Below are positions 3,613-10,150 of a stretch of 42,961 nt of DNA, piece by piece. Origin of the DNA: a virus. How positions within the stretch are numbered: the stretch's first letter is position 1; every line of letters begins with the position of its first letter. Where the stretch lies: IMG/VR virus record IMGVR_UViG_3300048589_001020, positions 1 to 42,961 of that record; one strand, given 5' to 3'. Below the pieces are notes generated by a model, which saw nothing but the letters and a program-made list of their open reading frames with translations, was not told the origin of the DNA and did no database searches. The position numbers were made by a program, and so were the translations under genes.

Positions 3613-4566
3613 TTAAGCTTTCGCGAATTTCACTGAGCACATGTACTCTTTCTGCACGGTTTCGAAACCTACGCCGAAATAAGCTTTCATAAAAAACTGA
3701 ACCAATTTTGGGTTGTCGCATTCGCGGATCTTCAAATCTTCCACGTCCGATTCTTGGTCAAAACCCATGTTCATGTTTTCTTTGATGGAGAAGTGCATCA
3801 AGTTGCCACTTTCCATGTTATAGAGCGGTACAAATTCGCAATTACCGTGCGAGCCGATAAGGAATTTGTGAGGGGCGTCATCTTTCCAAGGCTGGTTGCC
3901 GTTTTCAACTTTATACCAGTCTTCATACATTTCAATCATCGAAACCGGCAATTTCAATTGCACTTTTTGTTGCTTCAGGTGCGGGTCCAAATTCCTCCAA
4001 GCTGCTTTCAATTGGTCGCCAATGTTGTCAACAGTTGAAACCACACCAGAAATATCCTGGTAATTGCCTTTCAATGCGCTCATGCTTCCGCCTGTTACTG
4101 CTGCAGCTACAAGCGTGTTGAAACCGTTGAACAAATCGGCGGTTGTAGTTCCTGCAGCGTTGCGTGTTGCACTGAAAAGGTTGTTGTGCAAACTTTCGCC
4201 AATTTTCTTTGCCATTTCCATGGCCACACGTTTCACAAATTCATACTCCTTCACTCCTTTCGAAGTCAGCTCGGTGTAAAGCGATCCCAAAATAGCGTGG
4301 GGGTCGAATTCTTTTACTTCGTCGCCCAAGAATGTTTCCCACTCGTAGGGAGTTATAGCGATACCATCGGTAGCGCCTTTTGCGGTTTTGTAGGGGCGCA
4401 ACCCGGCATCAACTGCCAGTAGGCCGCCTATCACTTTGCCCTGGATTCCGGTGCGGATATTGAAATAGGGTTTCAATTTCGTTAACTCGAAAACGGGCAT
4501 GGCAAGCAATTCCTTTTTGTACTTGGTGCCTGCGTCAATCAATGCTTGATTAATGTCAAATGCCAT
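3613..4566 (-). CDS. Major capsid protein (HK97-like fold likely)
   Basis: 317 residues, preceded by a fused protease-scaffold gene and followed at 11 bases by a structural gene, the standard place for the major capsid subunit. The sequence starts MAFDINQALIDAGTKYKKEL and contains the glycine- and alanine-rich middle region (TTTADLFNGFNTLVAAAVTG) expected of an HK97-type shell protein. No N-terminal delta domain is evident, in agreement with scaffold being supplied by the upstream gene. Family assignment is by context and general character, not by a unique motif. Confidence 0.75.
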   Translation of the reverse strand: MAFDINQALIDAGTKYKKELLAMPVFELTKLKPYFNIRTGIQGKVIGGLLAVDAGLRPYKTAKGATDGIAITPYEWETFLGDEVKEFDPHAILGSLYTELTSKGVKEYEFVKRVAMEMAKKIGESLHNNLFSATRNAAGTTTADLFNGFNTLVAAAVTGGSMSALKGNYQDISGVVSTVDNIGDQLKAAWRNLDPHLKQQKVQLKLPVSMIEMYEDWYKVENGNQPWKDDAPHKFLIGSHGNCEFVPLYNMESGNLMHFSIKENMNMGFDQESDVEDLKIRECDNPKLVQFFMKAYFGVGFETVQKEYMCSVKFAKA

Positions 4567-7308: not shown

Positions 7309-8112
7309 TCACACCGGCAATGCAACCCTGTGCAGCAAAGCTGTGGACACGTGTGTATAGATTTCTGTGGTTTTGCTGTTTTTGTGGCCCGCAATCTTTT
7401 GGATGATGCGCAAATCAGTCCCGGCCTCCAGCATCGAAGTGAACGATGAATGCCGCAGCAGGTGGAAATGATAACTTTCTCCCAGGTACTTCTTCACTAT
7501 CTGGTTGCAGCTCGTTGGCGAGTATTTGGGGCTGAATTGGCCATTGAACAAGTATTCCTTTGGTTTATCCTCCTTATAATATTCGCGCAAGCAGGTAAGC
7601 ACGTTGGGCGACAAAGGAACAACACGGTCTTTCATCCCTTTAGCCTGGCGAATTGTAAGGATCATCCGGGCAGAATCTATATCGGCAATTTTTAAATTGA
7701 TTACCTCGCTAACCCGCAGGCCTACTGAGTAAGCTAACATGATGATTGCTTTGTGCTTGATGTTTTTAATCTTTGAAATCCTGTCGCGCAAAAAATCGCC
7801 GTCAATCACTTTCGGCAAGTGCTTCTCGGAACGCGGGTATTTGATGTATTTGAATTTCAGCGGTTGTTTTCCTGTAAATTCATAAAAAAGCTTAACCGCC
7901 GAAATCCGGTGCTTCATGCTGTTGGTAGTTTTCGACAGCATCAGCCAGTCCTTGATTTGCTTCTCGTTTATTTCACTTGGTTTTGTTGCTTTTTCATTGA
8001 AATATTTAAGAAAAAGTTCAACCTGGGCGCAATAATTCTTGATTGTGTTTCCCGCATAGTTTGCAAACCGCAAATCTTCGGAATACATTTTAACGTACCT
8101 TCCGATATTCAT
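7309..8112 (-). CDS. XerC/D-like tyrosine recombinase next to the cassette array
   Basis: 267 residues. An N-terminal SAM-like core-binding domain (about 1-90) is followed by a catalytic domain with R133 (GLRVSEVINL), K158 (QAKGMKD), H217-x-x-R220 (HLLRHS), H243 (AGHKNSKTTE) and nucleophile Y252 (IYTHVS), so the catalytic set is complete. It is short and lacks the roughly 20-residue insertion that marks integron integrases (IntI). The genome has a second, larger phage-type integrase (19688), which leaves this enzyme free for another job. Its gene follows directly the last cassette core site (8164-8170) on the same strand. I infer that it moves the cassettes, although XerC/D-type integration of the phage is an alternative. 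Confidence 0.9.
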   Translation of the reverse strand: MNIGRYVKMYSEDLRFANYAGNTIKNYCAQVELFLKYFNEKATKPSEINEKQIKDWLMLSKTTNSMKHRISAVKLFYEFTGKQPLKFKYIKYPRSEKHLPKVIDGDFLRDRISKIKNIKHKAIIMLAYSVGLRVSEVINLKIADIDSARMILTIRQAKGMKDRVVPLSPNVLTCLREYYKEDKPKEYLFNGQFSPKYSPTSCNQIVKKYLGESYHFHLLRHSSFTSMLEAGTDLRIIQKIAGHKNSKTTEIYTHVSTALLHRVALPV

Positions 8113-8163
8113 AATGTAAATATTTAGTTATTAATTCATTACAAGTTATTTCTACATATAGTA

Positions 8164-8170
8164 GTTAGGC
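8164..8170 (-). repeat. Core heptamer GCCTAAC closing the last cassette
   Basis: Exact inverse of the GTTAGGC at 8360-8354 that opens the same cassette. It follows the stop of the 8175 ORF in ATTACGCCTAAC, just as GCATAAC follows the 8494 ORF in ATTACGCATAAC. No matching right arm was found before the recombinase start at 8112, so this site is half or truncated, or its other half lies beyond the recombinase gene (7239). Confidence 0.6.
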
Positions 8171-8174
8171 GTAA

Positions 8175-8417
8175 TTATAAAAGACCCCTGCGCCCAGCAT
8201 TATCAATTTCCGTTTTCCAGAATTTTTGTTTCGCTTTCTGTACACCTTTTTTATTCCAAGTTGTTAATTCAAATTTTTCGGCAAATAGCACATCAAACAT
8301 TGCGAATAAACGAAACCAAATTTTCATCTTCCACGCTTTGAATGAATAACTACGCCTAACAGCACCCTTATTCAATGCGGGGTTTTCAGCTTCATTTGAC
8401 AATTTTTCTATATTCAT
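8175..8417 (-). CDS. Cassette ORF, 80 aa, unknown function
   Basis: Small basic, aromatic-rich protein (KAWKMKIWFRLFAMFDVLF...). No family recognised. Its ATG (8417) lies in the loop of the attC-like site at 8354-8487, and residues about 10-22 (AENPALNKGAVRRS) are encoded by the site's own arm. The same translated arm appears in the neighbouring cassette ORF (QNPQSNIGAVMRS), so the shared N-terminus reflects the recombination site and not common ancestry of the proteins. The body from residue 22 on is the cassette-specific part. It ends eight bases before the GCCTAAC core. Confidence 0.55.
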   Translation of the reverse strand: MNIEKLSNEAENPALNKGAVRRSYSFKAWKMKIWFRLFAMFDVLFAEKFELTTWNKKGVQKAKQKFWKTEIDNAGRRGLL

Positions 8418-8487
8418 AAATTTGTGCTTTTAATGTTGTTCAGTGCTATTTTCGCCCGCACTGAAATAAGGCTGCAAGCCGTTATGC
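8354..8487 (-). repeat. attC-like recombination site 1
   Basis: 134 bp. On the plus strand the left arm GCCTAACAGCACCCTTATT (8354 on) pairs with the right arm ending GGCTGCAAGCCGTTATGC (8487). The inner stems are CCCTTATTCAATGCGGG and CCCGCACTGAAATAAGG, with unpaired single bases and an asymmetric spacer, as in attC sites. The outer heptamers (GCCTAAC and GTTATGC) match only partly, as expected when two different cassettes meet. The loop holds the start codon of the 8175 ORF. Confidence 0.7.
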
Positions 8488-8493
8488 GTAATA

Positions 8494-8736
8494 CTACATT
8501 GTAGTAAAATGCACCTGCCCTTGAATCTGATGGGCAAAATCAATATAGTCCTGTCCAAGCCGTTTAAAATCTTCTCTGTAATGCTCACAGTTTTTGCATT
8601 CATAATGCCCATCCCCCCAACATTTACCTTGTGGCTGTCCTTGCTTATAGTCATTAGTCGGGCATTGTTCATCTAATACCGTACTACGCATAACAGCACC
8701 TATATTTGATTGCGGGTTTTGTGGTAAATCATTCAT
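8494..8736 (-). CDS. Cassette ORF, 80 aa, cysteine-rich
   Basis: Small protein with a cysteine cluster GKCWGDGHYECKNCEHY (residues about 38-55; C-x7-C-x2-C with nearby H), a possible metal-binding knuckle. As in the neighbouring cassette, the ATG at 8736 lies in the loop of the preceding attC-like site, and residues 6-18 (QNPQSNIGAVMRS) translate its arm. A second possible start is the ATG inside the core heptamer GTTATGC (8691), which would give a 65-aa protein without the leader. An overlapping frame at 8430-8672 is less likely. The ORF stops six bases before the GCATAAC core that closes the cassette. Confidence 0.5.
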   Translation of the reverse strand: MNDLPQNPQSNIGAVMRSTVLDEQCPTNDYKQGQPQGKCWGDGHYECKNCEHYREDFKRLGQDYIDFAHQIQGQVHFTTM

Positions 8737-8819
8737 TTTTGCTCGTATTAAAGTTTATACTAAATTGACAAAGTGTTGCTTCGTATTCCGCAACCAAACA
8801 TAGCTGCGGCACGTTACCT
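8688..8819 (-). repeat. attC-like recombination site 2
   Basis: 132 bp, nearly the same length as site 1. The plus-strand arm GCACCTATATTTGATTGCGG (8696-8715) pairs with the complement of CCGCAACCAAACATAGCTGC (8789-8808) at 17 of 20 positions. The left arm is clearly related to that of site 1 (GCnTAACAGCACC...ATTGCGGG...TTTT). Outer heptamers are GCATAAC and GTTACCT. The loop contains the start codon of the 8494 ORF. Confidence 0.7.
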
Positions 8820-8893
8820 GCAAGCGGTAAAATTGAAGTTTAAGGCGGATTGCAAAGTTTCAGTTTCAATTTTACTGAACGCCAGCAGGTAAC
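8813..8893 (-). repeat. ORF-less 81-bp cassette bounded by GTTACCT/AGGTAAC
   Basis: The ends GTTACCTGC and GCAGGTAAC are a perfect 9-bp inverse pair, and an internal dyad GTAAAATTGAA / TTCAATTTTAC folds the middle. No open frame fits. By position it is a complete cassette body without a gene, attached to site 2. It could be a transcribed hairpin, a promoter cassette or a relic. Confidence 0.55.
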
Positions 8894-8993: not shown

Positions 8994-9764
8994 TCAGAAC
9001 AGCGTTGTTTGCATCTGTTCTACCTTAATTCGTTGAGCAGCCTTTTCAAAATATTCTTTATTCAATTCACTTCCTATAAAGTTTCTTTTCTCGTTTATGC
9101 AGGCAATTGCAGTTGTTGCGCTTCCTGCATAGCCGTCAAAAACGGTATCTCCTTCGTTTGAAAATGTTTGAATTAGGTATCTAAACAAATCAACTGGTTT
9201 TTGTGTCGGATGAAAATTTCCTTTAGTGGATTTTCCAAATAATGTTCCATTCCAATTACTAAATTTTACGACTGAACCTGGGTATCTTTTACCTGAATCA
9301 GTATATTCGGAACCATTATTAATCCCTGAATATCCATCATATCTATTTTTCTTTTGTTTTCGGGTGTTACCTAATGAAATGCTCTTATCATATTGATAGA
9401 ATTGAGGGTTGTAGGTTGGCAGGGAGCGATAAAAAACCAACACGTTTTCATGTTGTCTTAGTGGCATTTTATTTGCATTTACAAAACCTAATTTTTGGGT
9501 TTTTTCCCATATAATTTCATATCTAAAAAAGCCCCGTCTTGATATTATTATATCTGTTGCAAACGGTTGCTGGGCTGTAAATATCCATGCTCCGTTGGGT
9601 TTTAAAATCCGTTCCCATTCTAACCACATTTCAGACATATTTGGCGCAATATCCCACTCTAAATTAGTTGTTCCATACGGCGGGTCAGTAAGCATTAAAT
9701 CAATACTTCCATCAGGAATCCGCTTCATTGTTTCTAAACAACACTCGTTAAATAATTGAATCAT
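8994..9764 (-). CDS. Solitary DNA methyltransferase (N6-adenine / N4-cytosine, beta class)
   Basis: 256 residues. Catalytic motif IV DPPYG is at residues 27-31, and the SAM-binding region comes near the C-terminus (TVFDGYAGSATTAIACINE, then FIGSELNKEYF). This order is that of the beta-class N6_N4 methylases. No restriction gene is near, so it probably protects phage DNA or alters regulation. The gene is visibly A+T-richer than its neighbours and starts with a strong Shine-Dalgarno (AGGAGG eight bases before ATG), unusual in Bacteroidota. It lies inside the loop of attC-like site 3 and between exact 17-bp inverted repeats, so it is probably an insertion. Confidence 0.9.
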   Translation of the reverse strand: MIQLFNECCLETMKRIPDGSIDLMLTDPPYGTTNLEWDIAPNMSEMWLEWERILKPNGAWIFTAQQPFATDIIISRRGFFRYEIIWEKTQKLGFVNANKMPLRQHENVLVFYRSLPTYNPQFYQYDKSISLGNTRKQKKNRYDGYSGINNGSEYTDSGKRYPGSVVKFSNWNGTLFGKSTKGNFHPTQKPVDLFRYLIQTFSNEGDTVFDGYAGSATTAIACINEKRNFIGSELNKEYFEKAAQRIKVEQMQTTLF

Positions 9765-9778
9765 AAAAAATCCCTCCT

Positions 9779-9795
9779 AAAAAAAATATAAAAAT
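9779..9795. repeat. Inverted repeat flanking the methyltransferase gene, right copy
   Basis: AAAAAAAATATAAAAAT, the exact inverse of 8952-8968. It lies just upstream of the methyltransferase ribosome binding site. Confidence 0.5.
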
Positions 9796-9831: not shown

Positions 9832-9861
9832 CCGCTTCGTTTCATATACCAACCGTTATGG
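9832..9861 (-). repeat. Arm of split attC-like site 3 (gene-proximal half)
   Basis: On the minus strand CCATAACGGTTGGTATATGA (9861 on), which has the same opening as site 1 (GCATAACGGCTTG). The stop codon of the 85-aa cassette ORF (TAA, 9858-9856) lies inside the core CCATAAC, so the coding sequence runs right into the site. Confidence 0.6.
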
Positions 9862-10113
9862 CAAATGCTTAATGACATCATCAGCATCATAACCATATTT
9901 GCCTATAAGTTCAGTTGAATAATACCGCTTCTTCGTATATTTGTGCAACCACTCACCTTGAAACGTTGTATCATCTTTGTATTCCAAATGTTCAAGTAAA
10001 GGAGTAGCACATGCCATAACACTGTATAAAAGCAATAACTCGCTTTGTGCTTGTGTTGGGCTTTTTGTTCCATCTTGAACTGCATTTAGTATTTCTAACA
10101 TTTGTGCTTCCAT
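9856..10113 (-). CDS. First cassette ORF, 85 aa, unknown function
   Basis: A small soluble protein (MEAQMLEILNAVQDGTKSPT...) with a helical N-terminus and an aromatic-rich C-terminus (HKYTKKRYYSTELIGKYGYD). No family recognised. The ATG lies within GATATGG, a one-mismatch version of GTTATGG, the expected inverse of the CCATAAC core that overlaps its stop codon. The gene therefore appears to fill its cassette exactly from core to core. It follows the SSB-like gene by 37 bases and could be transcribed from the replication operon. Confidence 0.55.
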   Translation of the reverse strand: MEAQMLEILNAVQDGTKSPTQAQSELLLLYSVMACATPLLEHLEYKDDTTFQGEWLHKYTKKRYYSTELIGKYGYDADDVIKHLP

Positions 10114-10150
10114 ATCGTTACTGCTTTTATACCTTTCTGTTATCTGTCAT

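Follow-up and report, generated by a model that had tools for sequence, protein, structure and literature searches.

On the minus strand of a 42,961-nucleotide (nt) stretch of viral DNA (IMG/VR record IMGVR_UViG_3300048589_001020, positions 1 to 42,961; hereafter, the window) lies an array of small gene cassettes with attC-like hairpins, which ends beside the gene of a XerA-family tyrosine recombinase (Table 1). Toward the recombinase, the order is a hairpin and its body, a methyltransferase gene, an 81-nt body without an open reading frame (ORF), two further hairpins each followed by a body, the sequence TACTATATGT, and the recombinase ATG at 8112. In all three gene-bearing bodies, the ORF starts in the loop of the preceding hairpin, and the GTT of the core is read as valine. 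The original prediction, made from the sequence alone, had placed the ATGs of the two 80-amino-acid ORFs (A and B) in attC-like loops, with proteins that begin with the translated arm, and had pointed to an in-frame ATG offered by one core; the coordinates and peptides are correct, and the core of cassette 2 reads GTTATGC. The leader of ORF B is almost identical to MNDLPQKPQSNIGAV, which stands on an unrelated body at locus L008, and when relatives of the ORF B protein were searched for, viral contigs yielded none and phages nothing beyond chance matches.

Table 1. Features of the cassette array and its recombinase end in the window
Feature	Position	Strand	Remarks
XerA-family tyrosine recombinase, probable cassette recombinase	7309..8112	-	267 amino acids; PF00589, 1.5e-34; NF040815, 1.8e-53
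attI-like array end	8150..8170	-	core GCCTAAC (8170-8164), then TACTATATGTAG
Cassette 1 body	8164..8360	-	ends GTTAGGCGTAGTTA..TAATTACGCCTAAC, complementary
Cassette 1 attC-like hairpin	8361..8482	-	L'' GCAGCCTTATTTCAGTGCGGG, L' CCCGCATTGAATAAGGGTGC; loop holds start codon; outer core 8488-8482
ORF A	8175..8417	-	80 amino acids; leader MNIEKLSNEAENPALNKGAV plus body; R' arm translated as NPALNKGAVRRS; ATG between arms of hairpin 8482-8361
Cassette 2 body	8482..8694	-	ends GTTATGCGTAGTAC..GTATTACGCATAAC
Cassette 2 attC-like hairpin	8695..8812	-	outer core AGGTAAC 8819-8813
ORF B	8494..8736	-	80 amino acids; leader MNDLPQNPQSNIGAV plus body; R' arm translated as NPQSNIGAVMRS; ATG between arms of hairpin 8812-8695
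ORF-less cassette body	8813..8893	-	81 nt; ends GTTACCTGC..GCAGGTAAC
Free-standing N6/N4 methyltransferase	8994..9764	-	own start, within array region; leaderless homologue of leader-bearing methyltransferases
Further cassette body	9855..10020	-	ends GTTATGGCA..TGCCATAAC
Third leader ORF	9856..10113	-	start in hairpin; Val frame across core GTTATGG at 10020; stop TAA within end core
attC-like hairpin of further cassette	10021..10138	-	arms GGTATAAAAGCAGTAAC / GTTATTGCTTTTATAC; outer core AGATAAC 10145-10139

The ORF-less body has cassette ends, and an inner hairpin is possible within it. The methyltransferase ATG is preceded by a strong AGGAGGG ribosome-binding site (~9765-9780, minus strand), which is unusual for genes of the Bacteroidota type.

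Recurrence of the leaders in viral contigs

Scanning viral contigs with exact patterns from the 3' arm yielded ~150 contigs. After deduplication, 117 ORFs (~117 distinct cassettes) carried related leaders (..GAV or ..ISDV) on unrelated bodies, as had been predicted, and in an alignment of 104 leader ORFs the leader was the sole part that aligned, with one valine invariant. Bodies found solely by the 15-nt complementarity of their two ends numbered 496 in 1.53 Mb of phage loci versus 0 in 151 kb of unrelated bacterial loci.

The reading frame across the core is strongly biased. Among bodies with an ORF of at least 40 amino acids, ORFs that start before the core fell into registers 0, 2, and 1 in the proportions 161, 31, and 1; since a core that reads GTTAG itself closes the register with the single ORF, the fair comparison is 161 versus 31. 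ORFs with their own start after the core, which serve as an internal control from the same arrays, were distributed at random (49, 52, and 51 in registers 0, 1, and 2). For the ISDV pattern, frame 0 stayed open beyond the core for a median of 56 codons and frame 1 for a median of 9, frame 2 being closed by the core itself when that reads GTTAG.

With matches to the scan patterns excluded, 105 of 250 ORF-bearing cassettes (roughly 40%) start inside their own site and the rest use their own ATG, although these 250 neighbors are still drawn from loci chosen for containing one leader cassette. The earlier claim that the site supplies a start codon and an N-terminal leader holds, but many cassettes of the same arrays, such as those of phage sniff9-1, have an ordinary ATG after the core. 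Both kinds occupy common arrays and have like ends (L003:3785-4147; L189, which is sniff9-1), and such mixed arrays make the leader a property of some hairpin subtypes and not of the whole system.

Some apparent leaders were rejected: an LGAV leader in L003 at 3860-4147, which is out of register with the core and has its own ATG at 3932, and NIGAV-containing long ORFs in L004, L011, and L014, which are unrelated long genes. In a further class of leaders, such as ..NTLLYAV, ..KPMLPAV, and ..NPMLAAD, the core is read in a different register (G|TTA) (L056, L068, L086, L091, L114, L135, and L141). Lone leader genes, with the 5' half of the hairpin missing, also stand in ordinary phage operons (L007:4270-4545, L010:1118-1336, L055:1735-1905, and L160:6371-6679), and those of L010 and L055 have TAACTCGC.. 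at the stop; possibly, these are cassettes that settled outside arrays.

Many phages whose hosts are of the Bacteroidota type carry such cassettes, which occur in phage contigs of 4 kb to 430 kb, in cultured flavophages, and in one 462-kb phage record (LR756500.1, our L038), which has no annotation and holds an ISDV-type leader ORF at ~11872 on the minus strand. Polaribacter phage P12002L has end-complementary cassettes of the present type, one of which starts before its core. None of 395 Bacteroidota genomes contained the ISDV pattern, and among 299 Flavobacteriaceae genomes there were 4 candidates for the GAV pattern; 21 pattern loci from 85,000 species genomes were all chance matches, none a real site. 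The cassette system seems to be phage-borne. Its cargo (L112, L122, L139, L175, L037, and the A1 set) includes several DNA methyltransferases, one ORF that matches the Lar restriction alleviation protein, and one that matches DUF4326. How efficiently the cultured Flavobacterium phages plate on one host strain has been linked to their methyltransferase content (PMC7077304).

The unit of gain and loss

Where homologous bodies lie in different surroundings, the upstream site retains an identity of 0.86 (background, 0.65) and the downstream site one of 0.61 (background, 0.60), and the upstream site is the more similar one in 38 of 39 pairs. Loci L112 and L126 are 99.9 to 100% identical save for one unit of hairpin and methyltransferase gene, inserted exactly after ..GCGGCTAAC. 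Among cultured Flavobacterium phages whose flanks are 99.8 to 100% identical, the differences are likewise single units (476, 439, and 342 nt), in each case one hairpin with the gene that follows. Four occupied/empty pairs are thereby available (L112/L126; hemulen6-1 and hattifnatt9-1 versus sniff9-1; sniff9-1 versus snork6-1; and sniff9-1 versus snork6-2), and all four events show the precise gain or loss of a single cassette at cores, between flanks 99.8 to 100% identical, as is expected of an integron. The other hairpin, which would be expected in the empty alleles had a gene been excised with the hairpin that follows it, was not seen there. Because these pairs and the linkage of upstream sites agree, we conclude that the site moves with the gene behind it: the mobile unit is the attC-like hairpin plus the gene downstream, not a gene plus the attC that follows. 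The 342-nt unit and the L112 unit were added at array ends, beside a site that is not a hairpin, and no recombinase was found beside those two ends.

A minority of changes took place inside the unit. A 98 to 100% identical body (SGSFNRFEEFF..) stands behind three unrelated attC/leader sequences, with the DNA switching exactly at ATCTGAT|GTT; a second body (98%) stands behind NIGAV and SCLGAV leaders, and two further body families offer weaker cases. In these swaps, leader and body are joined exactly at the core, in frame every time. The proposal that a site hands a ready start and a constant peptide to newcomer cassettes accordingly describes a minority mode, seen in identical bodies with different leaders, and does not describe the main mode, in which the gene carries its start inside its own attC.

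Hairpin structure and translation of the leader

Two hairpin families dominate, translated as ..GAV and ..ISDV, and their subtypes change both arms jointly (GCAGCTATATTTAGTTGCGG/CCGCAATTGAATATAGGTGC, GCAGCTAAACGAGGTGGC/GCCATCTTGTTTAGGTGC, and GCAGCTATACGAAGGGCGGG/CCCGCCTTTTGTATAGGTGC), as compensatory changes do. Single sites folded as DNA did not differ significantly from shuffled sequences (z, −0.3 to −1.8), and we used covariation instead. Over 37 different arms and 20 positions, pairing in the GAV stem was 0.90 versus 0.68 after the partners had been shuffled. Changes on both sides occurred several times, one G.G mismatch and one G.T pair were constant, and the spacers were asymmetric (5 versus 1 nt); for the ISDV arms, an ungapped pair count was uninformative owing to variable spacers. 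The complementarity between the two ends of a body spans exactly 15 nt: it falls off at position 16, and position 11 is a fixed G.T in 93%. The attC-like arms and their covariation are clear; the cores often match no more than GTTRNNN (for example, GTTAGTT and GTTATGT), and most read GTTAG, without an ATG. Upstream of the loop ATG, 79% have A at −3 and 67% have it at −6, and the share is ~77% at −11 to −13, an A-rich context that fits the Kozak-like starts reported for Flavobacterium (PMC6847099).

The original prediction had named homologues of the bodies that start after the arm as evidence against a leader. Such homologues do exist for methyltransferase bodies: the window methyltransferase begins MIQ-LFNEC. 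The leader versions, however, read MMQKTLFENENLIEPLKPAFCIGAVSRSTLLFGDC, and because they have no Met at the homologous place, the leaderless homologue does not refute the leader. For the methyltransferase of hemulen6-1 (QHB38775.1), the GenBank annotation by the depositors puts the start in the hairpin, and TLFENENLIEPLTPAFCIGAVSR is the predicted tryptic leader peptide; an AlphaFold model of the leader methyltransferase was poor (predicted local distance difference test score, 45) and uninformative on the leader. From the frame bias, the start context, and the Met-less methyltransferase homologues, we infer that the leader is translated. In the simplest reading, the arm is kept for DNA folding and its peptide is tolerated.

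Recombinase and array end

The window recombinase has the catalytic R, K, H-xx-R, H, and Y and a XerA-like sequence, and its closest solved relative is XerA (4a8e), in an alignment that spans GLRVSE, KGMKDR, HLLRH, GHKNS, and EIYTHVS; IntI4 aligns more weakly, in two stretches. Against the integron-integrase model TIGR02249 it scores 117 bits, below the cut-off of 265, and its best models are XerA/XerC. Relatives (37 to 82% identity) occur in 20 loci of the set, where the checked leader cassettes lie upstream on the same strand. In most relatives, an AT-rich, TATTATATAT-like sequence comes after the last array core (RYYYAAC-TA(T/C)TATATAT..), frequently at a distance of 52 nt from the ATG of the recombinase gene, and cultured Polaribacter and Cellulophaga phages with related recombinases have the same build directly before the recombinase. 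XerA resolves chromosome dimers at dif, and the attI-like TATATAATAGTT may resemble a dif half site. From its position, the XerA-like protein is probably the cassette recombinase.

Competing explanations

We favor, at a probability of roughly 80%, a phage-borne, integron-like cassette system of units that each consist of a hairpin and a gene, in one class of which the hairpin is the 5' end of the gene. This reading builds on the anatomy, the frame bias, the covariation of arms and ends, and the precise presence or absence of units, all of which the analysis shows. Under it, the AT-rich loop would hold the translation start, from which the ribosome would read 12 to 30 codons through the 3' arm and over the core (usually GTT, valine) into a body that stops at or near the core closing the cassette. 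Gain and loss of units would proceed through site-specific exchange at RYYYAAC/GTTRRRY-like cores, either where the end of a body meets the next hairpin or at an attI-like site (RYYYAAC-TATTATATAT) directly before the XerA-family recombinase gene. The genes point toward the recombinase, a polarity opposite to that of textbook integrons, and in a minority of events leader and body are exchanged at the core, always in frame. The XerA-like protein would act as recombinase on a folded single strand, and the leader, though translated, would be mostly passive.

Several results weigh against this reading. Purifying selection on the leader is weak: pN/pS (the ratio of nonsynonymous to synonymous polymorphism) in the loop is 0.69 in frame versus 0.85 and 1.03 in the wrong frames, and in the arm it is 1.16, which indicates no codon-frame constraint in an arm conserved as DNA without synonymous bias. 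Leader frequency is biased, given that the loci were gathered by leader patterns, and the indel events stem from just two phage lineages. IntI sites follow a rule of an unpaired G in L'' (PMC2727003), by which the asymmetry of the GAV arms would put the exchange at the other core; the rule conflicts with the indel data, to which we gave precedence, and it was set aside for polarity. Finally, no PF00589 tyrosine recombinase was found in the three Flavobacterium phages tested (sniff9-1, hattifnatt9-1, and hemulen6-1), drawn from the lineage with proven mobility, so some arrays must depend, or have once depended, on supply in trans, and another enzyme can act.

It is improbable that the recombinase is a mere lysogeny integrase and that the array differences reflect homologous recombination between phages, although relatives are annotated as integrases in cultured flavophages and L098/L057 could reflect exchange between similar hairpins. 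The same array end, with the shared site, bears the recombinase in contigs of at least 100 kb and in one contig that carries T4-like clamp and GroEL genes, and the indels are exact single units between identical flanks. We are more doubtful still that ordinary bacterial integron cassettes (clusters of attC sites lacking integron integrases [CALINs]) were taken up by phages and moved by host IntI. Phage CALINs have been published, as has an IntI1-active attC site of Polaribacter phage P12002L (PMC9892861), and this phage has end-complementary cassettes of the present type; the absence of a recombinase of their own from the tested Flavobacterium phages also fits. The sites are, however, near-absent from the bacterial genomes searched and present in many dozens of phage contigs, the unit polarity is reversed, and the associated recombinase is XerA-like, not IntI.

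The original prediction took the hairpin to be the leftover tail of the preceding cassette, which would equip any inserted cassette with a start codon and an invariant peptide. The leaders common to unrelated bodies, and the near-identical bodies behind different leaders, speak for that model, yet the hairpin moved with the following gene in 4 of 4 occupied/empty pairs and homologous bodies kept their upstream hairpin in 38 of 39; as the main mode it is contradicted, and we give it little credence, about as little as the uptake of bacterial cassettes. Least probable of all is that the leader is an annotation artefact, with genes that start after the core (for example, at the ATG of GTTATGC) and a frame left open by accident or by conservation of the hairpin DNA. 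The conservation of the arm without synonymous bias, the ATG within some cores, and the many cassettes that start after the core speak for it. It is opposed by the missing frame bias in own-start controls of the same arrays, by the GTTAG of most cores, by leader methyltransferases without Met at the start of their homologue, and by the A-rich −3/−6/−11 to −13 context and weak codon-frame constraint of the loop.

A bolder version of the favored reading would be a separate, virus-born class of integron with a XerA-type recombinase, a site that doubles as initiation region and N terminus, and a swappable leader with a job of its own, such as tuning synthesis or marking phage proteins; we regard this as unlikely, if somewhat less so than the rivals above. 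If the favored reading is true, the recombination site of a mobile element is protein coding and forms the start of its cargo gene, and gene capture directly controls translation and gives unrelated proteins the same N terminus. The system offers a mechanism by which small phage genes turn over rapidly, among them those of methyltransferases and of a Lar-type restriction alleviation protein, and isolates that differ by single cassettes make it testable in the laboratory.

Comparison with known systems

Among the closest known systems are phage-borne CALINs. Qi et al. (2023, PMC9892861) describe virulent flavophages whose attC-like arrays carry methyltransferases; one attC of Polaribacter phage P12002L, a phage that also has cassettes of the present type, recombined with attI1 through IntI1. 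In the parts consulted, that paper mentions for these sites neither a start codon nor a leader within attC, nor units of reversed order, nor a XerA-type recombinase of phages together with attI. No account of an attC that contains a start codon or leader came up in the literature searched, which covered few subscription papers and no preprints. The reverse integron of Treponema denticola (PMC4909258) resembles the present arrays in gene orientation, in that recombinase and cassette genes point the same way; here, it is the 3' end of the array that adjoins the recombinase. XerA of Pyrococcus (4a8e) is the nearest solved relative of a recombinase whose gene, in contrast, adjoins cassette arrays.

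With integrons (IntI/attC), the present system shares its organization into arrays of units with one gene each, its hairpin sites, whose cores are RYYYAAC and GTTRRRY-like, and exact single-unit gain and loss. In both, the core at the start of a cassette is complementary to the core at its end, and in the present system a putative attI-like site adjoins the gene of a tyrosine recombinase, as attI does in integrons. It differs in that the hairpin precedes the gene and, in many cases, encodes its start and N terminus, a departure from usual integron cassettes that the original prediction had rightly recognized; in the 15-nt end complementarity, fixed G.T, and relaxed cores; and in a XerA-like recombinase below the IntI model cut-off. 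Because it has neither an IntI nor the order of gene then attC, the system, despite its precise gain and loss of cassettes, is not filed as an integron; it is integron-like in its working.
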